A DNA stretch of 64,000 nucleotides from Labilithrix sp. (GCA_019637175.1 JAHBWD010000025.1:1-64000), one strand, 5' to 3'; shown: positions 2,426 to 51,600, counted from the stretch's first letter. The notes: a model not told the origin generated them from the sequence alone. Program-made: numbers and translations.

Positions 2426-3751
<1,326 letters not shown>

Positions 3752-3784: not shown

Positions 3785-3802
3785 TGTCGCGGGATCGTGA
3801 CG
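3785..3802. promoter_or_regulatory. Diverged copy of the 18-bp palindromic activator site
   Basis: TGTCGCGGGATCGTGACG agrees with the 18-mer found at 9034 and 17798 at 14 of 18 positions, and is likewise preceded by a CAGC-containing stretch. A second imperfect element (TCTCGCG ... CGCGGGACA) follows at 3811-3833. The site ends 49 bp before a -24/-12 promoter. It is read as an enhancer for a sigma54 activator. Confidence 0.4.
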
Positions 3803-3851: not shown

Positions 3852-3867
3852 TGGCACCGCGGCTGCA
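3852..3867 (+). promoter_or_regulatory. Sigma54-type (-24/-12) promoter
   Basis: TGGCACCGCGGCTGCA has GG and GC at the spacing required by sigma54 (consensus TGGCAC-N6-TGCA form). The predicted transcript start is near 3878, with the GGAGGA ribosome site at 3880-3885 and ATG at 3892. It lies directly downstream of the FHA-sigma54 activator gene. Confidence 0.5.
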
Positions 3868-3891: not shown

Positions 3892-4080
3892 ATGAACGAT
3901 CCGATGGACGAGCACGAAGAGCTGGAAGCCGCCGAGACGATCGAGAAGGCGAGTCAGAACGCGGTGGTCGCGAGCACGCCGCACAGCCTCCAACTGAGGC
4001 GCTCGCGGCGCCGCCAGCGATTCACGCGGCGGAGCCGCGAGCGGCGCACGAAGTGGCTCGGCGTCTCGCGCGGACGATGA
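3892..4080 (+). CDS. Small basic hypothetical protein (62 aa)
   Basis: A 62-residue ORF starting at ATG with a good GGAGGA ribosome site 6 nt upstream. The N-terminal half is acidic (MNDPMDEHEELEAAETIEK) and the C-terminal half strongly basic, with Arg-rich clusters (RRSRRRQRF, RRSRERR). No known domain, signal peptide or membrane segment. It sits immediately behind a -24/-12 promoter next to the FHA-sigma54 activator, so it may be the activator's nearest target; a nucleic-acid- or phosphoprotein-binding adaptor is possible but unproven. It could also be spurious, as GC-rich DNA gives many small ORFs, but the promoter and ribosome site together argue for it. Confidence 0.5.
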   Translation: MNDPMDEHEELEAAETIEKASQNAVVASTPHSLQLRRSRRRQRFTRRSRERRTKWLGVSRGR

Positions 4081-4088
4081 GCGGCAGG

Positions 4089-5012
4089 TCAGAACGCGTG
4101 CGCCGCCCAGACGCCGAGCGGGCCGACGGCCACGCGCGTCTTCGTGTTCCACATCGTCGCGAACAGGACGGCGGTGATCCCAGCGGCGACGAGCGTGGCC
4201 CCGCCGAGGACGTCCGTGGCGAGCGCGAGATCGTTCTGCTTCGAGCGCGCGCGATCGACGTCTTCGCGCGTGACGCCGAAGCGCCCGACCGTCTCGTCGA
4301 CGTCGGACTTCGCGCCGAGCGTGAGCACGCCGAACGTGACGGTGGCGGCGGTGAGCACGCCGGTGATCCCGACGCCGATCCACACCGGCGTGCGGTTCGG
4401 CGGACCGTCGGTCTCGGTCTTCGGGGGTGGCTCGGCCTCGGTCTTCGCGGGGGCGACGGCGAGGGTGACCACGAGCGTCTCGCCGCCTGCGACGTCGACG
4501 ACGCGCGAGACCGGCGCGGCCGCGCCCTTCGACGCGGAGATCTTGCGGCGCCCGGCCGTCACGAGGGCGGGCGCCGCGAGCGGGCTCTCGCCGACGCGAA
4601 CGTCGTCGACGGCGATCTCGGCGCCGTCGACGTCGACCACGACGTTCACGCGACCGACGAGCGCGCGCAGGCGCCGGAGCTCGCCCTCGGCGGTGTGGCG
4701 GCGCGCTGGAGGATCCTTGGAACCTCCCTCGGCGAGGTACTTCTCGAACGCCGTGAAGGCGCACGCGTAGTCTTGGAGCTCGACGCACGTCTGCCCGATG
4801 TTGAACTGGATGCGGTGGCTCGGGGCGGCGGCGTACGCCTTGTTGAACTCGACGAGGGCGGCGCGATACTCGCCGGCGCGGAAGAGCGTCACGCCGCGGG
4901 AGAAACGCGCGCGTCCCTCGTCGACGCCGGCGGGCTCTGCGCGCGCGGCGCCCGAGGAGGTCGAGAGCGCGAGCGCGATCGCCGCGGCGGCGTACGCGAG
5001 GCGTCGCTTCAT
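4089..5012 (-). CDS. Periplasmic TPR/PEGA-like protein
   Basis: 307 residues with an N-terminal signal peptide (MKRRLAYAAAAIALALS, cleavage near ARAEP). One to two TPR-like helical pairs follow (about residues 35-100: FRAGEYRAALVEFNKAYAA), then a beta-rich PEGA-type segment (about 115-180: VNVVVDVDGAEIAVDD ... VTAGRRKISA). A Pro-linker leads to two hydrophobic segments near the C terminus. The ATG overlaps the stop of the upstream kinase gene by 4 bp, so the two are translationally coupled. The architecture matches the protein at 11001-12002, and both are last genes of their operons. An envelope scaffold or sensor role is likely; no enzymatic motif is seen. Confidence 0.8.
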   Translation of the reverse strand: MKRRLAYAAAAIALALSTSSGAARAEPAGVDEGRARFSRGVTLFRAGEYRAALVEFNKAYAAAPSHRIQFNIGQTCVELQDYACAFTAFEKYLAEGGSKDPPARRHTAEGELRRLRALVGRVNVVVDVDGAEIAVDDVRVGESPLAAPALVTAGRRKISASKGAAAPVSRVVDVAGGETLVVTLAVAPAKTEAEPPPKTETDGPPNRTPVWIGVGITGVLTAATVTFGVLTLGAKSDVDETVGRFGVTREDVDRARSKQNDLALATDVLGGATLVAAGITAVLFATMWNTKTRVAVGPLGVWAAHAF

Positions 5013-6619
5013 CGCCGGTACGGATCCTCGTCGTCGATCGTGCGCCGCGCGGGTTTGCCGCGCGGCGGCGGTCGGGCAGCGGGCGCCGCGGTGCGCGGCG
5101 GCGCGCTGATCGGCGCGAGCGCCACGTCGAGGCTCAGGTCTTCTTCGACGACGATCGTGCGCTCGTACGGCGCGAAGCTCGGCGCGTTCGCCGCGACGTG
5201 GACGCGCGCGCCGCGGGGGAATCGACCTTGGTACGGCGTCGAGACGGGATCTCCGTCGATGACGAGCGAGGCGGAGTCGGGCGTCGTTCGGATCACGAGC
5301 TTCGGCAGCGCTTCGGGGGGCGCCGCTTCCGGCACCGACGACGCGGCGGCCGCGGCGGCCACGCCGCGCGACGGCGCGAAGCTCGCGCGAACGCCGAGGA
5401 TCGCGGTCGCGACGATCGCGATCGCCGCCGCTCCCGCGAAGAGCGCTCGCCTTCGCGGGCGGGCGCGCGGCATCGAGAGATCGGCGACGTGCGCGCCGTC
5501 GGTCGGCACGACGGTCTCGATCGAGGCCCCGAGATCGAGCGCGGGGAGGCTCGGCGGCGTGCTCGGACGCGGATCGCTCGCGGGCGCCGAGACCGGCGCG
5601 GTGAGCGTGATCGTCGTCTGCTTCGGGACGTCGAGCAGCGGCAACGACTGATCGGCGACCTTGAGCTGGTCTTCGATCGTCCGCTTACGCCGGGCGCGGT
5701 CTTCGCCGAACGCCGTTTCCATGAGCGCGGCCACCTGCTTCGCGTCGGCCCCTCCGGTGCGACGAAGATGCGCGTCGAGCGCCTCGTGCAGCTCGAGCGC
5801 GGTCGCGTAGCGCGCGTCCGGCGCGTGCATCATCGCCTTGTCGCAGATCGCGAGCAGCTCTTCGTCGGTCCCCTCGGGCGCCACGCTTCGGATGCTCGGA
5901 TCGCCGCCGGTCATGCGGCGCCCGAGCGTCGCCGCTTCGCTCTCTCCTTTGGGGGCGAGCCGGCGCTTGGCGATCGCCTCCCAGATCATGACGCCCGCCG
6001 AGAACACGTCCGCGCGACGATCGAGCTCCTTGCCGTGGATCTGCTCGGGCGCGATGTAGCCGACCTTGCCCTTGATGATCCCCGACTCGGTGTGGGGCGA
6101 GCCGGCGATCTTCGCGATCCCGAAGTCGACGATCTTCGCTTGCCCCGAGTACGTGACGAAGACGTTCTGCGGGCTCACGTCGCGGTGGACGACCGCGAGC
6201 GGGACGCCGTCGACGTCGGCGAGGGTGTGCGCATAGTGCAGCCCGAGGAGCATGTCGGCGATGATGCGGAGCTGCACGTCGACCGCGGTGTCCTTCGCGG
6301 TGTTGCTCGCGAGGATCGCGCTGAGCGATCGACCCTCGAGGTACTCCATCGCGAGGAAGAGCCGACCTTCGTCTTCGCCGGCTTCGTAGGTCTGCACCAC
6401 GTTCGGGTGGTTGAGCAGCGCGGCGACGCGGGCCTCGTCGAAGAACATCCGGCGCAGCTCCGGATCGGACGAGACGCTCGACCGGATCACCTTGAGCACG
6501 AGGAGCTTGTTGAAGCCCGCCGTCTTCTTCGACAGCGCGAGGTAGACGCGCGCCATTCCCCCTTCGCCGAGCCCGGCGACGAGACGATACCCGCCGATGT
6601 CGCGCGCGGACCGTGTCAT
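5009..6619 (-). CDS. Ser/Thr protein kinase with PEGA-type extracytoplasmic tail
   Basis: 536 residues. Kinase domain about residues 10-285: glycine loop GEGGMA, lysine K43 (LVLKVIR), catalytic loop HRDVSPQN (D147; the usual Lys is Ser149), DFG at 165-167, APEQ. The Ser in place of the catalytic-loop Lys recurs in one group of myxobacterial kinases as I recall, and need not mean it is dead. A Pro-rich linker precedes one transmembrane helix (about 390-410). Outside is a PEGA-like beta domain (about 440-510: LVIRTTPDSASLVIDGDPV). It overlaps both neighbours by 4 bp, so lipoprotein, kinase and TPR/PEGA protein are made together. The envelope tail suggests it senses cell-wall or periplasmic state. 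Confidence 0.92.
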   Translation of the reverse strand: MTRSARDIGGYRLVAGLGEGGMARVYLALSKKTAGFNKLLVLKVIRSSVSSDPELRRMFFDEARVAALLNHPNVVQTYEAGEDEGRLFLAMEYLEGRSLSAILASNTAKDTAVDVQLRIIADMLLGLHYAHTLADVDGVPLAVVHRDVSPQNVFVTYSGQAKIVDFGIAKIAGSPHTESGIIKGKVGYIAPEQIHGKELDRRADVFSAGVMIWEAIAKRRLAPKGESEAATLGRRMTGGDPSIRSVAPEGTDEELLAICDKAMMHAPDARYATALELHEALDAHLRRTGGADAKQVAALMETAFGEDRARRKRTIEDQLKVADQSLPLLDVPKQTTITLTAPVSAPASDPRPSTPPSLPALDLGASIETVVPTDGAHVADLSMPRARPRRRALFAGAAAIAIVATAILGVRASFAPSRGVAAAAAASSVPEAAPPEALPKLVIRTTPDSASLVIDGDPVSTPYQGRFPRGARVHVAANAPSFAPYERTIVVEEDLSLDVALAPISAPPRTAAPAARPPPRGKPARRTIDDEDPYRR

Positions 6620-8859: not shown

Positions 8860-9033
8860 CATGACCTCCACTCCCGAGCTCCCGACAGGGCCCGACTTCA
8901 AGAGCCGGACCAAACGTGACGCGCGCGGTGCCGGCGTGATTTCCACGCGGGAAACACGGCGAGGACCCGATGTCGGAGCGAGGCCGACACCGGAAACCGC
9001 AAGGCTTCCGTTGGGCTATGAGGGGCCCAGCGG

Positions 9034-9051
9034 TGTCGCGGGCGCGCGACA
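9034..9051. promoter_or_regulatory. 18-bp palindromic activator site, copy A
   Basis: TGTCGCGGGCGCGCGACA: perfect 7-bp arms around GGCG, preceded by GGCCCAGCG. The same 18 bases occur at 17798-17815 in the orientation equivalent with respect to its promoter. It lies 73 bp upstream of the -24/-12 element at 9125, inside the 308-bp divergent region, so it could also act on the minus-strand lipoprotein-kinase operon starting at 8859. Confidence 0.6.
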
Positions 9052-9124
9052 AGCGTCGAGGAGATCGGCGTCGCCGAGCGCGCTGCCTTCGCGTCGCGCG
9101 CGTTCGGCGGCGGCGCGAGTCGCG

Positions 9125-9140
9125 TGGCGCAGCGCATGCA
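9125..9140 (+). promoter_or_regulatory. Sigma54-type (-24/-12) promoter of the copper monooxygenase gene
   Basis: TGGCGCAGCGCATGCA keeps GG and GC at sigma54 spacing. The GC is 28 nt from the ATG at 9168, with GGAGGA between. No convincing -35/-10 pair is seen in this intergenic region. Confidence 0.5.
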
Positions 9141-9167
9141 GTCTGCACGCGCTCGGAGGAAGCAATC

Positions 9168-10526
9168 ATGAAGCGCGTCTCGATCGACACCGCCCTCACG
9201 GCAAGCTCCATCTCGGCGGTCCTCGCGATCGTCACCGCCGCGGCGTGCGCCTCGCCGACGATCCCCGGCTTCGGCAACGGCCGCGACGAAGACCCCACGA
9301 GCCCGGGCAGCAAGCGCGGCGACGGCGGAGCGACGAGCGGCGCGCCGACGCGCACGGGTCTGCCCTGCGACGTCGACAAGGTGCTGAAGACGAAGTGCCA
9401 GGCGTGCCACGGCGCTTCGCCGTCGGCGGGCGCGTCGACGTCGCTCGTCACGTACGCCGATCTCCAGAAGACGGGGCCCGGCGGAGCGAAGGTCGCCGAT
9501 CTCGTCAAGGAGCGGATCCAAGACGCGGCGCGGCCGATGCCGCCGGGCGCGCTCCTCCCGCCCGCGGATCGCGCGCCGCTCGACGCGTGGTTCGCGGCGG
9601 GCGCGCCGGAGTCGGACGCGGAGTGTGACAACGGCGAAGCACCGTCCGGGACGAAGCCGCTGTCGTGCAAACCCGACTTCGTGCTCAAGGGATCGCGGCC
9701 GTACGCGATGCCCGCGGGGAAGGTCGACGAGTACGTCTGCGTCGGTGTCGACGTGAACCTCGCGAAGAAGCGCCACGTGATCGGCATGGCGCCGAAGGTC
9801 GACAACGCGAAGATCCTGCACCACATCCTCCTCTTCAAGACGAAGAAGGCCGTGCCGAACGAGCCGACGCCGTGCGGAGCCTTCAACTCCGCCGGCCTCG
9901 ACTGGACGCTGGTGACGGGATGGGCGCCCGGCGGCGGCAACATGGAGCTGCCGCCCGAGGCGGGCTACGCCGAAGAGGTGGGGACGACCCACTGGGTGCT
10001 CCAGTTCCACTACAACAACGCGGCGAACGCGCCGAACCAGGCCGACAACAGCGGCTTCGAGTTCTGCACCACCGAAGAGCTCCGTCCGAACGACGCCGGC
10101 ATCGTCGCGTTCGGCTCGATCAACTTCAGCATTCCCCCCCGCGCGACGCACAAGATCAAGTGCGATCACCCGCTGGGCCCGCAGTTCGCGGGCGTGACGT
10201 TCTTCAGCGCGTCGCCGCACATGCACACCGCCGGCGCGTCGATGTCGACCGAGCGCGTTCCGAAGCTCGGTCTCGGGAAGCCGGAGATGGTCTTCGCCGA
10301 CAACGCGTTCAACTTCGAGAAGCAGGAGCACCACCCCATCCGCACGTCGGTCGCTCCCGGCGACATCATGCGCACGCGCTGCGCGTGGAAGAACCCGACC
10401 GACTCCGTCATCGGCTTCGGCGAAGGCACGGGCGACGAGATGTGCTTCCACTTCATGGCGTACTACCCCGACAAGCAGGTCCCTTGGGTGATGCCTTCGG
10501 TGCTCACGAAGTGCTCGGTGGAGTGA
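9168..10526 (+). CDS. PHM-like copper type II monooxygenase with N-terminal cytochrome c motif
   Basis: 452 residues from ATG 9168 (GGAGGA upstream); a longer in-frame extension has no signal peptide and is rejected. An export signal with a possible lipobox (TAAAC) is followed by a short c-type heme segment, C77-Q-A-C80-H81. A copper type II ascorbate-dependent monooxygenase-like fold makes up the rest. All ligand positions of peptidylglycine hydroxylase are present: H218-H219 (ILHHILL) and H281 (QFHY) for CuH, H351-M-H353 (SPHMHTA) and M425 (DEMCF) for CuM. The spacings 62, 70 and 72 nearly match the 64, 70 and 70 of the animal enzyme. It is probably periplasmic or surface-exposed, with the heme delivering electrons in place of ascorbate. 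Substrate unknown. Confidence 0.88.
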   Translation: MKRVSIDTALTASSISAVLAIVTAAACASPTIPGFGNGRDEDPTSPGSKRGDGGATSGAPTRTGLPCDVDKVLKTKCQACHGASPSAGASTSLVTYADLQKTGPGGAKVADLVKERIQDAARPMPPGALLPPADRAPLDAWFAAGAPESDAECDNGEAPSGTKPLSCKPDFVLKGSRPYAMPAGKVDEYVCVGVDVNLAKKRHVIGMAPKVDNAKILHHILLFKTKKAVPNEPTPCGAFNSAGLDWTLVTGWAPGGGNMELPPEAGYAEEVGTTHWVLQFHYNNAANAPNQADNSGFEFCTTEELRPNDAGIVAFGSINFSIPPRATHKIKCDHPLGPQFAGVTFFSASPHMHTAGASMSTERVPKLGLGKPEMVFADNAFNFEKQEHHPIRTSVAPGDIMRTRCAWKNPTDSVIGFGEGTGDEMCFHFMAYYPDKQVPWVMPSVLTKCSVE

Positions 10527-10584
10527 GGGCGCCGTCTGAGCCACAGGCCCGTGCTCCTCGCGCCCGCGCGCGAGCGAGCGGGGA

Positions 10585-10710
10585 GTGGTCGGTGTCTCGC
10601 GTCGACGGCGACGCGTCGCGCTCGTTGCCCTGGCGGCGGTAGCCGCCGGGGCGTGTGCACCGCAGGTCGAGGGCGCGAAGTGGTTCGTCCCGTGCGCGTC
10701 GAGACGCTGC
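10585..10710 (+). pseudogene. 5' fragment of a lipoprotein gene, truncated by a mobile-element remnant
   Basis: From GTG 10585 the frame encodes a Arg-rich N terminus, a hydrophobic core and a lipobox-like AGAC (MVGVSRRRRRVALVALAAV, then AGACAPQVEG): a typical lipoprotein signal. After 42 codons it runs into the 12-bp repeat that bounds the IS110-type remnant and stops at 10776 without any sensible mature domain. No continuation is seen beyond 10995. Read as a gene broken by insertion and decay; a chance signal-like ORF is the alternative. Confidence 0.4.
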
Positions 10711-10995
10711 TATGAAGTGACCCTGTCGAGCGGCGCCACGTCGTCTCGATTCGGATCAACGTGTTCATGCTCCTGAAGCGTGGATGACTCGAAGACCGGA
10801 GTAGGCAGCGTCGTGTCGCGGTACGGCCAACGGGCTTGGACGAGCGCGCGGCGAATGTGCCCGTTGCCCGTCTTCGTGATCTTTCCGTGACGAGCGCCGT
10901 CGCCGCTCGCATGGCCCGCGAGCGCACGCCCGCGATCAGAGCGTGGGCGCCCAACGGCTGCTCACGACCTCGCGATCGGAGCCGGTCACTTCATA
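10711..10995 (-). mobile_element. IS110-family transposase remnant bounded by 12-bp inverted repeats
   Basis: On the minus strand, 10818-10910 translates to ASGDGARHGKITKTGNGHI followed by RRALVQARWPYR. This is the conserved C-terminal Transposase_20 region of IS110/IS116/IS902 transposases (typical form: G-ITKTGN-H-RR-LVEAAW-YR). The rest of the enzyme, including the DEDD catalytic half, is absent; an in-frame stop precedes the fragment. The segment is bracketed by TATGAAGTGACC at 10711-10722 and its exact reverse complement at 10984-10995. It lies between the copper monooxygenase and the ABC operon and fills most of the 474-bp gene-free stretch 10527-11000. Confidence 0.6.
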
Positions 10996-11000
10996 CGTAC

Positions 11001-12002
11001 TCAGAAGCGGCCCGCGAGGCTGGCGCCGCCGACGCCGGCGCCGATCCAGGGTGTGATCGACGTGCGCTCCTTCGGCGCGAAGAAGTACCAGCCCGCGGCG
11101 AGGGTCATGCCGGTGATACCGACGATGAGGGACGTGGTGACGGCGCCGTCGAGGTCGCGCGAGAGCCTCTCGTTGCGGCGAAGCGACGCGCACGCGTCCG
11201 CGACGTCCGGCGTCGGCGCTTCGCAGCGGCTCCGCGGGACCTGAGCTCGCGCGAGCGCGCCTTCGGCGACCTCCACGCTCAGATCGGCGTTCGCCGACAT
11301 GCCGCCGATGATCGCCGCCGCCGTGAGGCTCGTCAGGCCGATCGCGCCGGCCACGTAAACCGGCCAGGTGGTGGTCGGAGGCGACAACAGGCTCGCGCTC
11401 TCGGCGTGGGGCGCCTGCGAAGCGGCCGCAGGTGGCTCGCGCTCGTGGTCGTCGCGGCTCTCGTCGACGTCCTTGGGCGCCGCATCTCGCATCGGTCGAA
11501 CCTCGACCACGGAGCCCGCCTCCGCGTCGATCGCCTCGGAGGCGGTCTCGGCGCCGACCGTCACGGCGATCGTGTGCGTTCCCGGCGTGACGTCGAAGGC
11601 GCCGTCGCTCGCGGCTGACGCGCGCCGGCCGTCGATCGTCACGACCGCGCCTTCGGGGGCGACGACGCGGACGCGGGCGGTCTGCGCGCGGGCCGCGCGG
11701 CGCGTGGCGTCGACGAGCTCGCGCGTCTTCGGCGGCGGATCGGCGACCTCGCTCTCGTACTCGTCGAGGTATCTCAGCGTGGCGAGCGGGCGGCCGGCCT
11801 TGAACGAGCAACCAGCGAGGAGCAGCGTCAGCGACGCACGCCGCTCGACCGCGCGCGTGCGCGCTTCGCGGAACGCCGCGCACGCCTCGTCGTACCTCTT
11901 CTTGTGGTAGAGGCGCAGCCCCTCCGCCTCGAGCTTCGGCGAGGCGAGCGCGGACGCCGGGGCCATCAAGAGGGCGGCGGTGACGAGGAGGGGAATGCGC
12001 AT
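11001..12002 (-). CDS. Periplasmic TPR/PEGA-like protein, paralogue of the protein at 4089-5012
   Basis: 333 residues. Signal peptide (MRIPLLVTAALLMAPASALA), a TPR-like stretch (about residues 25-85: LRLYHKKRYDEACAAFREA), then a PEGA-type beta unit (about 110-170: VRVVAPEGAVVTIDGRR ... DVTPGTHTIAVTV). A Pro/acidic linker and two hydrophobic segments close the protein. The order of parts is the same as at 4089-5012. It starts 7 nt after the outer-membrane barrel gene, so it is the last gene of the five-gene operon that begins at 17690. Probably an accessory or sensing protein of the export system; no catalytic residues are recognised. Confidence 0.78.
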   Translation of the reverse strand: MRIPLLVTAALLMAPASALASPKLEAEGLRLYHKKRYDEACAAFREARTRAVERRASLTLLLAGCSFKAGRPLATLRYLDEYESEVADPPPKTRELVDATRRAARAQTARVRVVAPEGAVVTIDGRRASAASDGAFDVTPGTHTIAVTVGAETASEAIDAEAGSVVEVRPMRDAAPKDVDESRDDHEREPPAAASQAPHAESASLLSPPTTTWPVYVAGAIGLTSLTAAAIIGGMSANADLSVEVAEGALARAQVPRSRCEAPTPDVADACASLRRNERLSRDLDGAVTTSLIVGITGMTLAAGWYFFAPKERTSITPWIGAGVGGASLAGRF

Positions 12003-12008
12003 GGGACC

Positions 12009-13622
12009 TCAGAACGAGTGGCGAGCCGTCACGTAGGCGGTGTCGTTGCGGCCGTAGACGCCACCGAAGGAGCCGCGCTCGCCGTCGACGAGCAGGAGCC
12101 CGACGCGGACGGTGAACGACGGCGCGTTGTAGCCGATCTCCGGCCGGACCATGTACCAGGTGGGAGAGACGCCGACGAACGAGCGGGTCTCGAAGACGAG
12201 ATTCTCGAAGAACGACCAGCGAACGAGGCTCGCGACGCCGACGTTGTTCTCGTCGGAGAAGAGCAGCGGACCGCGGTTGGCCGGGTCGAGGACCGGAACG
12301 AGGCGCATCTCCGGCCCGACGAGGCGCATGTACCAGGCTTCGACGGAGATCACTTTGTCGAGCGCGCGCTGGTACTCCATCCCCACGACGCCCTGCGCGG
12401 CGCCGCGCGCGACCGAGTTGAGCGTGCCTTGGGAGAAGAACGTCATCGCGGTGTCGTACGAGGCGTCCGCCCTCAAGACGAGCGGGCCCGCCGTCGTCGT
12501 CGCGTCGAACCCCACGTGGTGCCGCCGGTAGTAGCGAATCACCAGCGGGCCGCCGTACGCGGCCTCGGCCTTCTTCTGCTGCGATTGAAACGCGTCGAAG
12601 ACGAGGCCGTCGACCTTGTCGGGATCGGCGATCTCGAGCTGACGCGAGAACGCCGGATCGAGGTAGATGTACGGCGTTCGGTCGCGCCCCCAGTGGTAGT
12701 AGAACGACGTGTCGAGCTTGCCGGCGTGGACCTTGAACGACGCGCCGATCGACGCGCCGTCGAGCGGACCGCTCGGCGAGCGCGCGCCGACGAGCGCGGC
12801 CTGCGCGTCGTCGATGTGGTTGCGGTCGCGATCTTCTGCGTAGAGCCCGAAGAGGCGCCGATACGATCGCGGGCTGTCGGGCTGCACGAGCGACCAGTTG
12901 CCGCCGTAGAGCGAGAGGCGGTCCGGGACGAAGAACGGCTGGACGACGACGCCGAGGATGCCGACGCCGAGGTCGAAGTCCGCGCGCACCGCCGGCGTCG
13001 GGAGATCGATCATCTCTTGGTCGAGCTGCATGCGATTGCGCACGTCGCGCGCGTTGAGGACGTCGTTCGGCGCGAGGCCGCCTCCCGCGCCCCACACGAT
13101 GCGCTGCTGCCCGAGGCGCAGATCGACGTGCTCGCCGTAGATCCCGACGTAGGCCTCGCGCAAGACCGGCTCGACGCGGCCCGACTCGAGCTTGCGCTCG
13201 GCGCCGAGGTAGCCCGGGCGGCTCTCGGCGAGGTAGCCGCCGTAGGCGAGCGATCCGGAGAGCACCGCCTGGAAGGTCTTGCCGCGCGAGTACTTGACGT
13301 CGAGGTACGTGTGGGTGGTGAGCGCTCCGCGGTCGTAGCCGACGCGCTCCTCCGAGGGCGCGCCCGCCGGCGCGATCTCGCGCGCGGCCATGCCTGCCGC
13401 GAGCGTCAGCCGCGTGAAGCCGCGGAACGCGATCTGGTCAGGGCGCTCTTCGGGGGCGCGCTCGGGCTTCTTCACGGGTCGCTTCGCCTCGTCGTCCTCG
13501 ACGATCTCGACGATCTCGTCGGGCTCCTTCGCGTCGGCTTCCTTGGCGTCGACGCGCGACGCGAACGAAGAGACCGAGGCGATCGAGAGGAGCGCGGCGA
13601 CGGCGACCACGCTGGACTTCAT
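12009..13622 (-). CDS. Predicted outer-membrane beta-barrel protein (DUF1302-like)
   Basis: 537 residues from ATG 13622. A signal peptide (MKSSVVAVAALLSIASVS) is followed by an acidic/Lys-Pro linker (about 25-65). Alternating aromatic/polar beta strands fill the rest (LREAYVGIYGEHVDLRLGQQ, FDLGVGILGVVVQPFFVPDR), ending in ...YVTARHSF with the C-terminal aromatic typical of outer-membrane barrels. The motif LRLGQQRIVWG resembles DUF1302-type proteins, which occur beside LolA-like proteins and ABC or RND exporters. The gene lies 11 bp after the permease, so it is probably the outer-membrane end of the same trans-envelope system. The exact family is uncertain. Confidence 0.75.
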   Translation of the reverse strand: MKSSVVAVAALLSIASVSSFASRVDAKEADAKEPDEIVEIVEDDEAKRPVKKPERAPEERPDQIAFRGFTRLTLAAGMAAREIAPAGAPSEERVGYDRGALTTHTYLDVKYSRGKTFQAVLSGSLAYGGYLAESRPGYLGAERKLESGRVEPVLREAYVGIYGEHVDLRLGQQRIVWGAGGGLAPNDVLNARDVRNRMQLDQEMIDLPTPAVRADFDLGVGILGVVVQPFFVPDRLSLYGGNWSLVQPDSPRSYRRLFGLYAEDRDRNHIDDAQAALVGARSPSGPLDGASIGASFKVHAGKLDTSFYYHWGRDRTPYIYLDPAFSRQLEIADPDKVDGLVFDAFQSQQKKAEAAYGGPLVIRYYRRHHVGFDATTTAGPLVLRADASYDTAMTFFSQGTLNSVARGAAQGVVGMEYQRALDKVISVEAWYMRLVGPEMRLVPVLDPANRGPLLFSDENNVGVASLVRWSFFENLVFETRSFVGVSPTWYMVRPEIGYNAPSFTVRVGLLLVDGERGSFGGVYGRNDTAYVTARHSF

Positions 13623-13633
13623 TGCGTAGCCTT

Positions 13634-16129
13634 TCAGCCTGCGGATCCTCGCGCGCCGCGGAGAACGGCCGAGAGATCGAGGCGCATGAGCGCGCGGGCG
13701 CCGGGGATCGTCGCCGCCAGAAGAAACGCGAGGGTCGGCGCGGCGACGACGCCGAAGTCGTGCGCGCGAAAGTCGAGCGGCACCGAGAACCACGCCGCGG
13801 CCATGGGCGCGCGGAGGACGTACGCCATCGCGACCCAGCTCACGAGCGACGCCGTGAGGCCGAGGACGCCGAGGCACGCGATCTCGACGAAGACGCTGCG
13901 CGCGATCTCGCGCCAGCCGTAGCCCATCGTGCGGAGCGTCGCGTACTCGCCCTCGCGCTCGAGGAGGAGGAACCCGAGCACGCTCGCGAGAAAGAACGCC
14001 GCGAGGATCGCGCCGAGCCCGACGAACGGGACCACGACGGCGTTGAACGCCGAGAGGTAGCGGACGGTCGCGCCGGCGAACTCGGACTTGATCTGCACGC
14101 TGGTGACGAGCTCGTTCGCGAGGAGCGCCGTCTTCGTGCTCACGTGCTCCCGCGGCGCGCGCGGCGCTTCGCTCGCCGGCGCAGGCGCCGCCTCACCGAG
14201 ATCGATCGCCTCCACCGTGTCGGGGCGCGGGCCGGGCGGCGGCAGCGCGAACGCGGCGCGCGGCGCGCGCGGCACGCCGTGCTTCATGTAGACGCCGGTG
14301 ACCTTGTCGCCGAGGCCGAAGATCTCCTGGGCGGTCTCGCGGGGCACGTAGAGGGTCGAGAGCGACGCGTCGGCCACCGTGCCGACGACGACGAGATCGC
14401 GGCGCTTGCCGCGATGAACCACGGTGACGATCTCGCCGAGCGCGGGAGGTGGTAATCCGCGCGAGAAGGCGACGTTGAAGACCGCCTCGTCCGCGTCTTC
14501 GGCGCTGAAGGTGCGGCCGCTCGCGAGCTCGAGGCTCACCATCTCGCTCGGCACGGGGAGCCCACGGACGCGCATCTCTTCGGGGACGGCGCCGGGCCGC
14601 TCCACCGTCGCGTACGCCTGGACGTAGCCCTCGTAGTCGCCGGCGCCGGGCGCCGCGAGGATCTCGTCGACCTGGCCGCGCGCGAGCGGAACCTTGAAGG
14701 TGACGATCGCGTCCCAGCCGAGGCGCGCGGCCTGCGCGTCGGCCCACGTCTGCCACGAGGCGATCGACGTGAGCAGGCCCGCGGGCATCGTGACCGCGAG
14801 CGCGACGAGCGCGACGGTCGCGGCCGACAGACGGAGGCGCCGGAACACGTTGCGCACCGCGAAGCGCACCGACGGGCTCCCCGCGAGGAGCCGCTCGAGC
14901 GGCCGCCACAGCCCCGTGAAGCGGATCTCGTCGCCGCCGCGCAGCGCGTGGACGGGGCGCACGCGCAGCACGCCGAGCGCGGGCACGAGCGCGGAGACGA
15001 CGCCGACGACGATCGCCGAGACCGAGGCGAGCGCGAGCTTGTGCGCCGCGATCGACATCATCGGCGGGGGAAACCCGGCGATCGCCGCGTTCGTCCGCGC
15101 GAGCTCGGCGGCGAAGAGCATCGCCGCGGGCGCGCCGAGAACGGCCGCGGCGACGCCGGGGATGATCCCGAGGACGACGAACGCGAGCACCAGCTCGCGC
15201 GGCGCGAAGCCATGCGCGAGGAGCGAGCCGATCTCCCGTCGGCGCGAGACGACGATGCGGTGAACCGAGACGATCGCGACGACGCCGGCCATGAGGCCGA
15301 GCAAGAGCGCGATCGTCGGCATGACGATCCGCGATCCGGAGAGCATCTCGTCGACGTAGCGATGACCGAAGTTCGAGCGCCGCGGAACGACGCGCTCGAC
15401 GTCGACGTGGTGATCGGCGAGCGCGCGCCGGATCTCGCGCGTCACTCGGGCCGCGTCGGCGCCGGGTCGGAACGTGAAGACGAGGTTGTTGTAGAGCTTG
15501 TCGGTGAACGTCCGGTCGAGCGCCTCGCGCGAGGCGTAGAGGATGCCGAGCGAGCCCCGGTGCGGGACGAGCATCTCGGGGTTCGCCGTGGGCACGAGGT
15601 ACTCGGGCGAGAGCGCGACGCCGGCCACCTTGAAGCGGCTCGCGAAGCGATGGGGATTGACGACGAGCTCGTCGCCGAGGGCGAGCGCGTGCGCCTCGGC
15701 GAAGGAGCGGTCGGCGATCGCGAGATCGGGGCGGCCGGGCACGAGGAACGATCCCGCGCGCATCTCGATGTCGTCGACCTCCGGATGGTCCGAGGGATCG
15801 AGGTAGTGCACGACGACGGGCAAGAGGCCGCCGTCGCGCTCGATGTGCCCGAAGCCCACGAACCGCCGGCTCACGCGCTCGACGCCGGGGATCGCGCGGA
15901 GCGTCTCGAGCGAGGGCATCTCGCCGCTCGCGGCGGGCGCGAAGCGAACGTCGAGATCGGCGAGGTGCAGGCGATCGTAGTAGTGATCGCGCGTGTGGAG
16001 CAGGCTGTCTTCGACGACGAAGCCGCCGCCGAGCGCCGCGACCTGCACCGTGAGGACGAGGACGATGAGCATGACGCGGCCCTTCGCGCGCATGAGCTCG
16101 CGAAGACCGAACCGCAGGAGCGTCTTCAT
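13634..16129 (-). CDS. FtsX/MacB-type ABC transporter permease
   Basis: 831 residues from ATG 16129. Two permease halves: an N-terminal helix (about 17-38) plus a large periplasmic core (about 40-275, with R/V-rich MacB-like sequence), three helices near 280-400, then a second helix, periplasmic domain and three C-terminal helices (about 720-825). This is the LolE/MacB-like duplicated FtsX layout with eight helices, used to move lipoproteins or hydrophobic cargo from the inner membrane without a classical pore. It overlaps the ATPase gene by 4 bp (ATGA), showing tight coupling. Cargo is not known; the LolA-like first gene points to lipid or lipoprotein handling. Confidence 0.9.
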   Translation of the reverse strand: MKTLLRFGLRELMRAKGRVMLIVLVLTVQVAALGGGFVVEDSLLHTRDHYYDRLHLADLDVRFAPAASGEMPSLETLRAIPGVERVSRRFVGFGHIERDGGLLPVVVHYLDPSDHPEVDDIEMRAGSFLVPGRPDLAIADRSFAEAHALALGDELVVNPHRFASRFKVAGVALSPEYLVPTANPEMLVPHRGSLGILYASREALDRTFTDKLYNNLVFTFRPGADAARVTREIRRALADHHVDVERVVPRRSNFGHRYVDEMLSGSRIVMPTIALLLGLMAGVVAIVSVHRIVVSRRREIGSLLAHGFAPRELVLAFVVLGIIPGVAAAVLGAPAAMLFAAELARTNAAIAGFPPPMMSIAAHKLALASVSAIVVGVVSALVPALGVLRVRPVHALRGGDEIRFTGLWRPLERLLAGSPSVRFAVRNVFRRLRLSAATVALVALAVTMPAGLLTSIASWQTWADAQAARLGWDAIVTFKVPLARGQVDEILAAPGAGDYEGYVQAYATVERPGAVPEEMRVRGLPVPSEMVSLELASGRTFSAEDADEAVFNVAFSRGLPPPALGEIVTVVHRGKRRDLVVVGTVADASLSTLYVPRETAQEIFGLGDKVTGVYMKHGVPRAPRAAFALPPPGPRPDTVEAIDLGEAAPAPASEAPRAPREHVSTKTALLANELVTSVQIKSEFAGATVRYLSAFNAVVVPFVGLGAILAAFFLASVLGFLLLEREGEYATLRTMGYGWREIARSVFVEIACLGVLGLTASLVSWVAMAYVLRAPMAAAWFSVPLDFRAHDFGVVAAPTLAFLLAATIPGARALMRLDLSAVLRGARGSAG

Positions 16130-16887
16130 CGCCGGCCCGCGATCGCCTTCGGCAGCACGGCGGGCGGGGCGAGCGAGGCGATGCGGCGCATGCCCGAGCC
16201 CTGATCGCTCGCGGCGTGCTCGATCACGCTGCCGTCGCGGAGGTGCACGGTCACGTCGGCGCGCGCGGCGAGCTGGGCGTCGTGCGTGACCAGCACGCAC
16301 GTGACGCCGAGCTCGCGCTGGAGGGCGCGCATCGACGCGAAGACCTGCTCGCCGGCCTCCTGGTCGAGGTTCCCGGTCGGCTCGTCGGCGAGCAGGAGCT
16401 TCGGCTCGCGCGCGAGCGCGCGGGCGACGGCGACGCGCTGCTGCTGGCCGCCCGAGAGCTGCGCGGGGAACCGATCGGCCGTGCCCGAGAGCCCCACGCG
16501 GTCGAGGTAGTCGAGCGCGCGCCTCCGCCGCGCCGACGGCCCGAGCGGTAAGAACTCGAGGCCGGCCTCGACGTTCTCGAGCGCCGTCAGCGAGGGCACG
16601 AGGTTGTAGAACTGGAAGACGAAGCCGACGCGGCTGCGGCGGTGCTCGAGGATCTCGTCGCGCGAGGCGGTCATGAGATCGAGCCCGTCGACGACGACGC
16701 TGCCGAAGTCTCCGCGGTCGAGGCCGCCGAGGATCGTGAGCAACGTCGTCTTGCCGCAGCCGGAAGGGCCTACGATCGCGGAGAGCGAGCCGCGCGCGAG
16801 GCCGAGCGAGACGTCGCGGAGCACTGGCGTGTGCAGCGTGCCGAGGCGATGGGCCTTGCGCAGATGGAGGACGTCGACGAGGAGCAT
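16126..16887 (-). CDS. ABC transporter ATP-binding protein (LolD/MacB-like)
   Basis: 253 residues. Walker A GPSGCGKTT, Q-loop (VFQFYNLVPSLTALENV), signature LSGGQQQRVAVARALA, Walker B LLLADEPTGNLD and the H-loop histidine (VTHDAQ). The ADEPTGNLD sequence and overall size place it with LolD/MacB/FtsE-type ATPases that partner FtsX-fold permeases. ATG 16887 is the likely start; a longer in-frame reading upstream is antisense noise in the LolA-like gene. It couples with the permease through a 4-bp overlap and follows the LolA-like gene by 5 nt. Confidence 0.94.
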   Translation of the reverse strand: MLLVDVLHLRKAHRLGTLHTPVLRDVSLGLARGSLSAIVGPSGCGKTTLLTILGGLDRGDFGSVVVDGLDLMTASRDEILEHRRSRVGFVFQFYNLVPSLTALENVEAGLEFLPLGPSARRRRALDYLDRVGLSGTADRFPAQLSGGQQQRVAVARALAREPKLLLADEPTGNLDQEAGEQVFASMRALQRELGVTCVLVTHDAQLAARADVTVHLRDGSVIEHAASDQGSGMRRIASLAPPAVLPKAIAGRR

Positions 16888-16892
16888 GACGG

Positions 16893-17690
16893 TCAGCCCT
16901 TCTCGATGGCGCGGACGGAGAAGCTCTCGAGCGGGATGTCTTCGCGCCGGTCGATCTTCTCGAGCAGGAGCTCGGTGCTGCGGCCGGTCGCGGCGTCGGT
17001 CATGCGCGAGCTCGTGATGAACCACCGACCGCCGAGGCGCTGGAGCTCGCGCGCCGTGAGCGTCTTCACGAGTGTCGACTTCTTGTCGTACATGACCCAT
17101 TTGAGCGGGACGTAGTTGTCCTTGCGCACCCAGAGCTCGATCTTCCCGTAGACCGAGTCGGCGTTCTTCGGCGTCACGTCGACGTGCCAGCAGTCGAACT
17201 TGCCGATCGTCTCGTCGGCGCGGAGGGCCGACTGGCTCTGGCGGAGATCGCGCGCGTCGAGATCGGCGTAGGAGAAGTCGGTGCCCATGAACGACTCGCC
17301 GCGGTTCGATCCGGCGATGCGACGCGAGCGCTTCAGCTCGGGCGCGTAGAGGAAGCGCTCGTCGTCGGCGCCTGCGCTCTGGATCTGGAGGAACTTCATG
17401 CCGGCGACGTCGGCCGGCGCGCGGAACGTGATGACGCTCTTGGTGAGCGGAGGCGTGTCGCGCCGCGACTTGGCCTCGAAGGCGAGCGAGCGGCGCTTGC
17501 CGCCCTTCTCGGTCACGACGGCGCGGGCGTTGACCTCGGCGCCGCCGAAGCCCCAGGGATCGGCCTCGACGACGCGCGCGACGATCTGGCTCGCGCTGAG
17601 GGAGGGCTTGGCGTCGGCGACCGCGCGCCCGGGCGAGGCGGCGACGACGGCGAAGAGGGCGGAGGCGAGGAGGGGGAGACGAATCTTCAT
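16893..17690 (-). CDS. LolA-like outer membrane lipoprotein-sorting family protein
   Basis: 265 residues with a signal peptide (MKIRLPLLASALFAVVAAS). The mature part has a LolA-like pattern: an initial helix (SASQIVARVVEADPWGFGG), then strands that would build the half-barrel, with the conserved YAPELKRSRRI and GTDFSYADL elements seen in COG2834-type proteins. These bind lipids or lipoprotein acyl chains in the periplasm. ATG 17690 is preferred over GTG 17699 because the -24/-12 promoter at 17711-17726 puts the transcript start close by. First gene of the operon running to 11001. Confidence 0.85.
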   Translation of the reverse strand: MKIRLPLLASALFAVVAASPGRAVADAKPSLSASQIVARVVEADPWGFGGAEVNARAVVTEKGGKRRSLAFEAKSRRDTPPLTKSVITFRAPADVAGMKFLQIQSAGADDERFLYAPELKRSRRIAGSNRGESFMGTDFSYADLDARDLRQSQSALRADETIGKFDCWHVDVTPKNADSVYGKIELWVRKDNYVPLKWVMYDKKSTLVKTLTARELQRLGGRWFITSSRMTDAATGRSTELLLEKIDRREDIPLESFSVRAIEKG

Positions 17691-17710
17691 CGGGGTCACT
17701 CTCGGTCTCG

Positions 17711-17726
17711 AGCAACGTCGGTGCCG
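17711..17726 (-). promoter_or_regulatory. Sigma54-type (-24/-12) promoter of the ABC/outer-membrane operon
   Basis: Read on the minus strand: CGGCACCGACGTTGCT. GG and GC are correctly spaced and the -12 part TTGCT is a consensus match. The GC lies about 22 nt before ATG 17690. It is the best sigma54 match in the window. Confidence 0.6.
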
Positions 17727-17797
17727 TGCTCGGGAGGGCTGGAATTTCGGGAGAAAGCGCGATTCTTCGAGGTTTCACGACGGTGGGGGCCGGCCGG

Positions 17798-17815
17798 TGT
17801 CGCGCGCCCGCGACA
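17798..17815. promoter_or_regulatory. 18-bp palindromic activator site, copy B
   Basis: On the minus strand it reads TGTCGCGGGCGCGCGACA, identical to copy A at 9034-9051, and is again preceded by GGCCCAGCG. It lies 71 bp upstream of the -24/-12 promoter at 17711-17726, against 73 bp for copy A. Confidence 0.6.
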
Positions 17816-17830: not shown

Positions 17831-19096
17831 CTAACCGGTGGGACAAGCGCGCCTGCTTCGGGCGCGAATGATGTCGAAGTGGCGGGGCTGCAGGCCGCTC
17901 GCGCGCGCCGCGCCCGTCTTCGTGACGTGGCGCGAGAGCGCGCGCTCGACGTAGCGGCTCTCGAACTCGCGCACGACGCGGACGCGCGCCTCGGGGAAGG
18001 AGAGGCCCTCGTCGACGATGGCGTCGAGGAAGTCTTCCTCGTCCGGTCGGGCGGGCTTCTGCCGTGACTCGAAGAGATCGCCCACGGTGCGACGCGCGAG
18101 GACGGCGGCCTTGAGCTCGCGGACGTTGCCCGGCCACGCGTAGCGGTCGAACCGCGGGAGGAAGTCGACCGGAAGCTCGGGATCGCCGCCGTCGTTCGCC
18201 GCGGCCTCGCGCCAGAAAGCGCGCGCGAGGTGGGAGACGTCGCCGTCGCGATCGCGCAAGGCCGGCAGCGCGACGCGGCCGCCGGCGAGCATCAGCGCGA
18301 GCACGGCGTCGAAGCCGCGCACGGTGACCTCGCGCCCGAGATCCCGCCGCGTGGCGGCGATCACGCGCAGATCGGCCGGCCTCGAGAGCGCCTCGCGCAC
18401 GAGGCGCTGGCTGTCGGCGTCGAGCGCGGCGATCTCGTCGATGAAGAGGACGCCGCCGCGCGCGGCCTCGAGGGATTCGGCCATCGCCGCCGCGTCGGTC
18501 GCGCCCGTGATCTCGACGAAGGGACCGCTCGCGCGCCGCCCGGCGCGGTGGATCTCGCGTGCCGCGAGCTCTTTGCCGGTGCCCGCTTCTCCGTGCAGGA
18601 GCAAGGGGTTGTCGAGCGCCGCGAGGGCCGCGAGCGACTGGAAGATCTCCTGCATCGCCGTGCTCTTGCCGAACAGGCGCCCGAAGCCGCTCGCCCGCGT
18701 CGCCGCCTCGGCTTCGCGACGCACCTCGATGAGCGTGTCGCCGAGGCGGATGATCTCGCCGCCGCGCAGGAAGGCCTCACGGACGGCGGCGCCGTTGACC
18801 ATCACCGTGCCGGTCCCGCCGACGTCGACGATCACGAGGTGACCGTCCGCGGCGTGGATCGACGCGTGGCAGCGCGCGACGCCTTCGTCGGCGAGGCGGA
18901 GCGTGCACCCGAGCCCCGTTCCGATGACGGCGCGATCGAAGCCGCCGTCGATCGAGAGCGTCGCGCCGGCGTCAGAGCCATCGACGACCGCGAGGACGAA
19001 CGGCGTCTTGCGCGCTTCCTCGAGCGGCGCGCGCGCGAAGCGCTTGCGACGAACGGTGCTGTGTTCCCTCGGATCGCGAAATCGACGTGCTTGCAT
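17831..19096 (-). CDS. FHA-AAA+ regulator lacking GAFTGA (sigma54-activator relative)
   Basis: About 421 residues. An N-terminal FHA domain (about residues 25-115; strands LSIDGGFDRAVIGTGLGC and GTVMVNGAAV) precedes an AAA+ domain with Walker A GEAGTGKE and Walker B GGVLFIDEIAAL. The segment between them that should hold loop 1 (ELFGHERGAFTGA) is shortened and has no GAFTGA. A C-terminal HTH is present (TKTGAARASGLQPRHFDII). Without GAFTGA it should not remodel sigma54 polymerase, so it may be an anti-activator or a sigma70 regulator. ATG 19096 or 19099 can serve as start. The end lies just beyond copy B of the palindrome. Confidence 0.85.
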   Translation of the reverse strand: MQARRFRDPREHSTVRRKRFARAPLEEARKTPFVLAVVDGSDAGATLSIDGGFDRAVIGTGLGCTLRLADEGVARCHASIHAADGHLVIVDVGGTGTVMVNGAAVREAFLRGGEIIRLGDTLIEVRREAEAATRASGFGRLFGKSTAMQEIFQSLAALAALDNPLLLHGEAGTGKELAAREIHRAGRRASGPFVEITGATDAAAMAESLEAARGGVLFIDEIAALDADSQRLVREALSRPADLRVIAATRRDLGREVTVRGFDAVLALMLAGGRVALPALRDRDGDVSHLARAFWREAAANDGGDPELPVDFLPRFDRYAWPGNVRELKAAVLARRTVGDLFESRQKPARPDEEDFLDAIVDEGLSFPEARVRVVREFESRYVERALSRHVTKTGAARASGLQPRHFDIIRARSRRACPTG

Positions 19097-19285
19097 CATG
19101 CACGGGCATGGTGGCAAGCGCGGTTCCATCCGCGATCCTCCGAGAACGACGCAGATCGCGCGCGCCGAGATCACGATCGGTCGCCCGCCGGCGACAACGT
19201 CGCGCCGGAGCGATCCAGTGATCGACCGGAGATTCGTGAATGATGATGTAGGTCTGAGAGCGACAGTCGCGGCCTGGCGCGATCG

Positions 19286-48617: not shown

Positions 48618-48689
48618 CGCACCGCCGCTCTGTGTCGTGCTCGTAATCCTGAATGATCCAGACACGTTGCGTCGGGCGGCGACCCCACG

Positions 48690-51600
48690 ATGACCGCGAA
48701 AACGATCCGCTCCGCACTCGGCGTCCTCCAAGACGATCCGGACAACGACAAGGCCTGGTCCGATCTCCGCGAGGCGCTCGGATTCACGGAAGGCGAAGCC
48801 GCCGTCGATCCCGGAGATCTCGGCGCCGACGAGCTGGCGCAGCTCCTCGAAGCCGCGCGCCGTGCGCACGAGATGCGTCGCGAGTACGACGCGGTCGCCG
48901 ATCTGCTCGAGATCGAGGCCGCGCTCGCGACCGGACCGCGCGAGGCCGATCTGGTGAGCGAGCTCGCGCGCGTGCGCGACGACGTGCTCCTCGACGACGC
49001 CGGCGCGATGTCGGCGTACCGCAGGCTCCTCGGGCTCCGCCCGAACGACGCGACGGCCGAAGAGGCGATCGAGCGCAGCGAGGCGAAGCGATCCAAGTGG
49101 AAGGATCTCGCGCAGCGTTACTTCACCGAGTCGAAGTCGGCGGGCGACGCGTCGTTCAAGAGCTCGCTGCTCGTGAGCGCCGCGGAGATCGCGTATCGCT
49201 ACGGGCTCCCCGATCTCAGAGACGCCGCCCCCTCGGAAGAAGACGCTTCCGCCCCGCCGAAGAGCAAGCGCAAGGGCGGCAAGAAGAACAAGCTCAAGGA
49301 TCCGGCGGGCGCGCGCCGCGAGCTGCTCGACAAGATCATCGGCCTGCTCGCCGACGCGCTCGAGCTCGATCCGAAGAACCGCCGGGCCGCGCTCTTGCGC
49401 GAGCGCCTCTTGCGCGCCGAGGAGCGCTGGGAGGATCTCGTCGTCGCGCTCGAGAGCTTCGCCGCGGAGGTCCCGGCGAAAGACGAGAAGCTCGCGGCGC
49501 TCATCCGCCTCGCCCGCGTGCTCAAGAAGAAGCTCGGCGCGCCCGACCGCGCGACGGGCGCGTACGAGCGCGTGCTCGATCTCTCGCCGGGCCAGAGCGA
49601 GGCGATGGGGGCGCTCGTCGATCACTTCACCGAGCGCGAGATGTGGGATCACCTCGTGTCGCTCTACGACGGTCAGCTCTCCGGCGGCGGCGTTCGCCAG
49701 GGGCAGGAGGTCGGGATCATCCTCCAGATCGCGATGGTGAGCTGGAAGATGCGGGGCAAGCCCGAGGCGGCGGAGCCCTACTTCGATCGCCTGCGCAAGC
49801 TCGAGCCGGCGCACCCGGGAATGCTCGGCTTCTTCCGCGAGTGGTGCCCTGCGAAGGGCGAGCAGGCGCGGCTCGCGCAGATCCTGACCGACGCGCAGCG
49901 CGCGATGCCCGACGGGCCGGAGCGCGGCAAGCTCGCCGCCGAGATCGCGTTGCTCGCCGAAGAAGGCGCCAACGCGCAGAAGGCGATCGAGCAGTGGCGC
50001 GCCGTGCTGCGCTCGGAGCCGACCAACGCGGCCGCGCGCGAGGCGCTGAAGCGCCTCTACCGGCAGACGGGCACGTTCAACCACCTCGCCGATCTGCTCC
50101 GCTCCGAGCTCGAGCGGGTCGCGCCCGACGACGCGGCGGCGCGCTTGCCGATCCTCCGCGACATCGCGGCGATCTATCGCGAGCACATCAAGAGCGACTC
50201 TGCGCTCGTCACGGTGCTCTCGCAGATCATCGCCCTCGACGCGCAAGACGCCGAGGCGGTGCGCGAGCTCGCGCGCGTCTACGAGACGCTCGGGCGCTGG
50301 CGCGATCTGCTCACGACGCAGATGCGGCTCGCCGAGCTCGAGCCCGACACCGCGCGTCGCGCCGAGCTCTATCGCGCGGTCGCGCGGCGGTGGCTCGATC
50401 AGTTCTCGAACGTCCAGAACGCGGTCGAGGCCTTCGAGAAGCTCCGCGAGGTCGACCCCGACGATCGCGAAGCGGTCACGAAGCTCAAGGATCTCTACAC
50501 GAAGCGGCGCGCGTACCGGCAGCTCTACGACCTCTACGAGGGCGAGCTCGCGCGCACGGAAGGCGCCGAGCGGCGCGCGCTGTGGATGGAGATGGCCAAG
50601 ATGGCCTCGGATCGCCTCGATCGCGGCGCCGACGCCTCGCGCCTCTACAAGCTCATTCTCGGCGAGGATCCGAGAGACGCCGCCGCCCTCGACGCGCTCG
50701 AGAAGCAGGCCGAGCGCGACAAGGACTTCGCCACGGTCGCCGACGCGCTCGAGCGTCGCGCCGATCTGACCGACGACGCGCAGGCGAAGCTCGTCGTGCT
50801 CCAGAAGCTCGGGACGGTCTACGCCGATCGCCTCGAGGATCACGCGGGCGCGCTGCGCGTGTGGCGGCGCGTCCTCGAGCTGTCGCCTGGGCACGCGAAG
50901 GCGATGCGCATCCTCCGCGACAGCTACCTCGCCATCGGCGACTTCGACGGGCTCTCCGAGCTGTACGCGCAGTCGAGCGATTGGGAGGGCCTCGTCGAGG
51001 TGCTCTCGAGCGCGGCCGACCGCGCCGCCGATCTCCAGCTCAAGATCGATCTCTCGTTCCGATCGGCCGCGATCTTCGAGGAGAAGCTCGGCGCGCCGGA
51101 GCGCGCGTTCCGTGCCTACGAGCGCGTGCTCTCGGTCAAGCCCGACGATCGCCGCGCGGCCGCGGCGCTCGCGCCGCTCTACGAGGCCGAGGAGAAGTGG
51201 GCCCGCTTGCCGGCGCTCTACGAGGTGCTGCTCGCGCACACCGACGACGCCGCCGAAAAGCGTGCACTTTACAAGAAACTCGCCATCGTCAGCGGGAACA
51301 AGCTCTCCGACAGGGCGGCCGCGTTTCGCTACGCGGTGAAGGCGTTCGACCTCGCGCCCGCCGAGCCCGCGGCCGTTCGCGAGCTCGAAGAATGGGCGCG
51401 CGCGTCCGGCGAATGGCAGGCGTTCGCCTCGGCCCTCGAGGCGCGCGCGAGCTCGAAGTCGACGAGCCTCGACGAGAAGCGTGGGCTCCGGCTCAAGCTC
51501 GCCGAGGTGTCCGCCGTTCACACCGGCAACAGCGGCGACGCGATCGGCGCGTACCGCGAGCTCATCGAGGCGAACGAGAACGACGAAGAAGCGATCGCCG

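Follow-up and report, generated by a model that had tools for sequence, protein, structure and literature searches.

The window, i.e. the whole stretch of 64,000 nucleotides of Labilithrix sp. analyzed here, contains near its start two divergent genes. One encodes a Ser/Thr protein kinase (PF00069; 514-2322, minus strand) and the other a sigma54 activator, here named EBP1 (2426-3751, plus strand), composed of an FHA domain, an AAA+ domain with GAFTGA and a putative C-terminal HTH region. An antisense ORF at 595-2364 was rejected as a conserved gene, the real gene being the kinase on the opposite strand. Next follow an ORF for a basic protein of 62 aa (3892-4080, plus strand) with GGAGG just upstream, a second kinase (5009-6619, minus strand) and a Cys-rich secreted protein, here referred to as P4 (7525-8862, minus strand). 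Searches of Pfam and NCBIfam gave no match for P4. Its relatives recur close to FHA-EBP and kinase genes.

Divergent from P4 lies a copper type II ascorbate-dependent monooxygenase (9168-10526, plus strand; PF01082, PF03712). It is followed by an operon on the minus strand from 17690 to 11001. The first gene of the operon encodes a LolA-like protein (16893-17690; PF17131, E 2e-56) and the remainder (11001-16892), according to Pfam, an ABC ATPase, an FtsX/MacB permease, a DUF1302-like outer-membrane protein and an unknown protein. A second FHA-AAA+-HTH protein is encoded at 17831-19174 on the minus strand. Elsewhere in the window, an open reading frame of ~3800 codons spans 48657-60200.

Palindromes upstream of sigma54-type promoters

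An 18-bp palindrome, TGTCGCGGGCGCGCGACA, was confirmed exactly at both places of the original prediction, at 9034-9051 on the plus strand (site 1) and at 17798-17815 on the minus strand (site 2). Arms of 7 bp surround a centre of 4 bp (TGTCGCG-N4-CGCGACA), and both copies fit the dyad TGT-N12-ACA exactly. The common orientation that had been described, with GGCCCAGCG ahead of each palindrome, was borne out as well: GGCCCAGCG stands on the promoter-distal side, 1 bp off at site 1 and 2 bp at site 2. A dyad of 19 bp, TGTCGGAGCGAGGCCGACA (TGTCGG-N7-CCGACA; 8971-8989), one base wider than the sites, is found 44 bp upstream of site 1.

Both sites precede GG-N10-GC elements of the -24/-12 type at the distances claimed earlier, 73 bp for TGGCGCAGCGCATGCA (9125-9140, plus strand) and 71 bp for CGGCACCGACGTTGCT (17711-17726, minus strand). 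On a 12-point consensus score they reached 9.5 (moderate) and 10, respectively. The genes behind them are those named before: the copper monooxygenase, of which site 1 is the predicted upstream activator site (UAS), and the LolA/ABC/outer-membrane operon, of which site 2 is the predicted UAS.

A scan of strong -24/-12 elements revealed a third site, TGTCGCGGGATCGTGACG (3785-3802, plus strand; here named site 3), located directly behind the EBP1 gene and 49 bp ahead of TGGCACCGCGGCTGCA (3852-3867, plus strand; score 10). It is the predicted UAS of the gene for the 62-aa protein. The first nine bases are those of sites 1 and 2, while the outer arms carry one mismatch (TGTC...GACG), the site ending in G. 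With 73, 71 and 49 bp, all three distances fall into the range of a UAS, i.e. tens to ~150 bp upstream of the -24/-12 element.

In the 9.1-Mb genome TGTCGCGGGCGCGCGACA has two perfect copies, both within the window, and all other matches carry at least 2 mismatches. The original prediction, which had seen no other perfect copy between genes of the window, therefore holds for the whole genome, the degenerate third site, like the second FHA-AAA+ gene, having been overlooked. The pattern TGTCGCGGGNNCGYGACR, composed after all three sites were known, matches the genome exactly three times, namely at sites 1-3 of this cluster, which stand 49-73 bp from their -24/-12 elements. Copies scattered without link to such elements, which had been put forward as grounds for dropping the prediction, were not found in this genome-wide search.

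The identity of the two 18-mers alone is weak evidence, since the window has many exact repeats of this length: at 70.6% GC it contains 59 repeated 18-mers, tandem arrays included, compared with a mean of 6.5 and a maximum of 19 per window under a trinucleotide model. The dyad TGTC-N10-GACA, on the other hand, is rare, with 0.27 expected per window and 2 seen. A repeat or hairpin of no regulatory role, be it a dispersed repeat, a terminator or a duplicated intergenic fragment, would fit the frequency of such repeats, the position of sites 2 and 3 just past stop codons and the repetition of GGCCCAGCG at sites 1 and 2. However, site 1 sits between divergent genes and orthologs retain the dyad while its inner bases change, so that we give next to no weight to this explanation. 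An intrinsic terminator was rejected, as sites 1 and 2 lack a T-tract and neither was called as a terminator; a dispersed repeat was rejected with two perfect copies in the genome.

Conservation in related genomes

Orthologs of the LolA operon were found in three other genomes, here referred to as G007 (74% identity), G006 (69%) and G001 (59%); the closest genomes of the comparison set belong to one genus. Gene order is kept in G006, and in all three the operon and a P4 homolog diverge from a region that holds the conserved dyad. A TGTC-N10-GACA 18-mer precedes the corresponding -24/-12 element in each of the three: TGTCATCGGCCGGTGACA stands 150 bp upstream of CGGCACCGACGTTGC in G007, TGTCATCGCAGCGTGACA 97 bp upstream of TGGCACCGACGTTGC in G006 and TGTCTCTCGGCGGCGACA 60 bp upstream of TGGCATCACCGTTGC in G001. 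At the -24/-12 element downstream of site 2, CGGCACCGACGTTGC is identical in G007, its counterparts in G006 and G001 being the two variants given. Outer bases and spacing of the dyads are constant and the inner bases vary between genomes.

TGTC with a gap of 10 was the sole arm/gap combination out of 2816 to occur in even three of the four LolA upstream regions, and it is present in all four. When these regions were shuffled, none of 2000 trials had any combination in all four. From the sequence comparison, we consider that conservation across genomes, and not the bare repetition of an 18-mer, makes the palindrome real.

Two further features accompany the dyads of the LolA operon. G001 carries a wider TGTC-N12-GACA next to its dyad, and in G007 and G006 (loci L040 and L041) a second conserved block, GATCCAGATC(A/G)AAT, is located ~10-25 bp downstream of the dyad, possibly as a site for a bending protein.

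Site 3 has a counterpart in G007. There, a small basic ORF that lies behind the P4 gene and resembles that of the 62-aa protein is preceded by the same 16-mer as the -24/-12 element of site 3, and CGTCTCGACAGCGCGACA, a dyad related to site 3, stands 61 bp ahead of this 16-mer. Only its position, its promoter and the similarity seen by eye in the DNA support the homology of this ORF to the 62-aa protein; tblastn with the 62-aa protein gave chiefly arginine-rich low-complexity matches.

Homologs of the copper monooxygenase with at least ~45% identity nearly all carry a -24/-12 element close to the start, which suggests that sigma54 generally controls the copper monooxygenases of this group. On contig C100 of G007, TGTCGCCCGCGCGTGACA precedes the -24/-12 element of such a homolog by 84 bp. 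In G001 the copper monooxygenase beside a 75% relative of EBP1 has the -24/-12 element, and a clear TGTC-N10-GACA is absent.

Dyad geometry at other FHA-EBP loci

Throughout 58 genomes the dyad combined with a -24/-12 element had 74 matches. The reversed pattern had far fewer, and a control with the -24/-12 spacing one base too long, whose gap range was slightly different, had 37. An earlier de novo scan had yielded p ~5e-12. Since that set contained the window's own loci as well as two preselected ones, we rely on a rerun with 38 loci picked by homology, solely for encoding FHA-EBP relatives.

In this unbiased set GTCC-N8-GGAC, one form of the geometry GTC-N10-GAC, showed the strongest enrichment of all dyads ahead of strong -24/-12 elements (p ~1e-7 before correction for ~2300 combinations). 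TGTC-N10-GACA itself reached p 0.002-0.05 before correction, and it is the wider geometry that carries the signal. One of the FHA-EBP loci, in genome G020, has two tandem dyads. On contig C24 of the Labilithrix genome (L208, 12250-12600), two strong -24/-12 elements that point away from each other share the single dyad CGTCCC-N6-GGGACG between them, close to another FHA-EBP.

As far as sequences can tell, the reading of the dyads as UAS is strongly supported, because dyad and -24/-12 element are conserved together across species, the third site has its counterpart in G007 and GTC-N10-GAC is enriched at FHA-EBP loci. The same evidence supports the activator-site role that had been proposed for the two palindromes. 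It is highly improbable that the dyads instead serve a conventional repressor or activator that has no connection with sigma54, e.g. a TetR- or PpsR-like protein. PpsR does bind the pattern TGTc-N10-gACA (PMC3949515), and arms shifted by one base could suit other dimeric regulators. Nevertheless, the conservation of the dyad is coupled to -24/-12 elements over loci and genomes, and the sites showed no recurring neighbour that encodes another regulator.

The probable activator

EBP1 matches PF00158 with E 1e-66 and carries the Walker motifs GESGVGK and GGTLFLDE as well as GHERGAFTGA, i.e. the intact GAFTGA reported before. At its C-terminus the HTH_8 match (19.6 bits) is below the 22-bit cut-off, and a NorR profile aligned to near the profile end. 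The AlphaFold model had a pLDDT of 47 and was too poor for use. RpoN (sigma54) is present in the genome. In the EBP1 family, SREH and SKNGT are retained in the FHA domain, whereas the arginine of the GR motif usually found there is missing; phosphothreonine recognition may therefore be non-canonical.

In the tree EBP1 belongs to a clade (support 100/99) whose members are two genes of G001 and single genes of G006, G007 and the window genome. Among twelve genomes of the genus these are exactly the four carrying the LolA operon at 59% identity or more, a match with a chance of 1 in 495 for independent genomes, an assumption that does not hold here. One gene of the clade in G001 adjoins P4 and the LolA operon and another adjoins a kinase and the copper monooxygenase. 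The window unites in one cluster what G001 splits. The kinase at 514-2322 has a 54% homolog at the latter place (contig C633), beside the EBP1-clade gene and the copper monooxygenase, and is a possible input to EBP1; that such kinases act via the FHA domain is our guess.

The original prediction had assigned the palindromes to EBP1. Neighbourhood, phyletic co-occurrence and the intact GAFTGA support this assignment and point to EBP1 as the probable binder of sites 1-3. Another EBP of the genome could be the binder, because these genomes encode many FHA-EBPs: in the window genome 18 EBP1-like matches reached E<=1e-80, and further FHA-EBP loci own GTC-N10-GAC palindromes near -24/-12 elements. 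Moreover, the operon of G006 is linked to a less related FHA-EBP (42%), and the closest EBP1 relatives of G006 and G007 lie on another contig than the LolA operon. We regard such a binder as rather unlikely, however, since the EBP1 clade and the LolA operon co-occur and, in two genomes, are linked, and site 3 follows immediately behind the EBP1 gene. In addition, the recognition helix ARTSFYRM is common to EBP1 and the LolA-linked copy of G001, the other three members of the clade having ARPSFYRM.

The second FHA-AAA+ protein (17831-19174) has an HTH region, and its gene stops 15 bp short of site 2. It might accordingly bind the dyads as a repressor, a co-regulator or a hetero-oligomer partner of EBP1. 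This is improbable: the entire GAFTGA loop is missing, so that the protein should not activate sigma54 alone, and no close ortholog linked to the LolA operon was found in G001, G006 or G007, its relatives (52% at best) being located elsewhere. FHA-AAA+-HTH proteins without GAFTGA form a large family across Polyangia.

A putative local regulon

Taken as a whole, the palindromes are probably the UAS of a small local sigma54 regulon with three promoters, and the binder is most likely EBP1. Several points weaken this reading. Each promoter of the window has one clear dyad as opposed to the tandem sites at many EBP promoters, tandem copies being common, though not universal, and therefore not decisive; site 3 is only 49 bp from its promoter and has the mismatch in its outer arms; and the copper monooxygenase beside the 75% relative of EBP1 in G001 shows no clear dyad.

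Activators of this class bind a dyad as a dimer, contact the promoter by looping of the DNA and remodel sigma54-RNA polymerase at the expense of ATP. By analogy, we infer that a dimer of a sigma54 activator with Fis-type HTH, most likely EBP1, would sit on each 18-bp dyad. Looping would bring its GAFTGA-bearing AAA+ ring across the intervening 49-73 bp to the RNA polymerase-sigma54 at the -24/-12 element, where ATP-driven remodelling could follow. The copper monooxygenase, the LolA/ABC/FtsX/DUF1302 operon and the 62-aa basic protein would thereby be switched on jointly, perhaps upon a signal from the kinase.

As sigma54 enhancer sites, the elements are ordinary in kind. The more interesting and unproven part is that one DNA code may be common to many FHA-EBPs of this group. 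It is possible, if not yet probable, that FHA-type sigma54 activators of Polyangia share the code (T/C)GTC-N10-GAC(A/G), with only the inner bases differing by paralog. Many parallel circuits of kinase, FHA-EBP and sigma54 could then control copper monooxygenases and cell-surface operons and be decodable from sequence. Myxobacteria have very many FHA-type sigma54 activators, and a conserved site tied to one activator and three promoters would offer a route to match activators with their targets from sequence.

Comparison with known systems

In the literature searched, most subscription journals being outside its scope, no published TGTC-N10-GACA site or DNA code for FHA-EBPs was found; relative to this literature, the proposed DNA site of the FHA-EBP subgroup would be new. 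FHA-type sigma54 activators have been described in Myxococcus xanthus (Jelsbak et al. 2005, as cited in PMC6971385). As far as this citation goes, they are of the same FHA and sigma54-activator class and the same phylum as EBP1, whose group differs in being a Polyangia subgroup. Nla28 of M. xanthus likewise governs a myxobacterial EBP regulon with repeated sites near sigma54 promoters, but these are tandem 8-bp repeats of the half-site CT(C/G)CG(C/G)AG (PMC9765219) and not a TGTC-N10-GACA dyad.

Closer in form are the enhancer sites of GcsR from Pseudomonas aeruginosa (TGTAACG-N4-CGTTCCG) and of TyrR (TGTAAA-N6-TTTACA) (PMC4894688). The sites of the window resemble this type in their 18 bp, the 7-bp arms around 4 bp, the outer TGT and the position upstream of -24/-12 elements. 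They differ in the GC-rich inner arms (TGTCGCG) and in occurring singly rather than as three tandem copies; furthermore, EBP1 has an FHA domain, and its N-terminus is not TyrR-like. The PpsR/CrtJ site TGTc-N10-gACA, bound by a FIS-family HTH (PMC3949515, PMC6899989), has the identical outer pattern and spacing, whereas PpsR, a PAS-domain protein, represses photosynthesis genes and acts without sigma54. By analogy, the sites at the Labilithrix locus would work like the TGT-N12-ACA sites of PpsR and TyrR type, although we do not count them as members of either.
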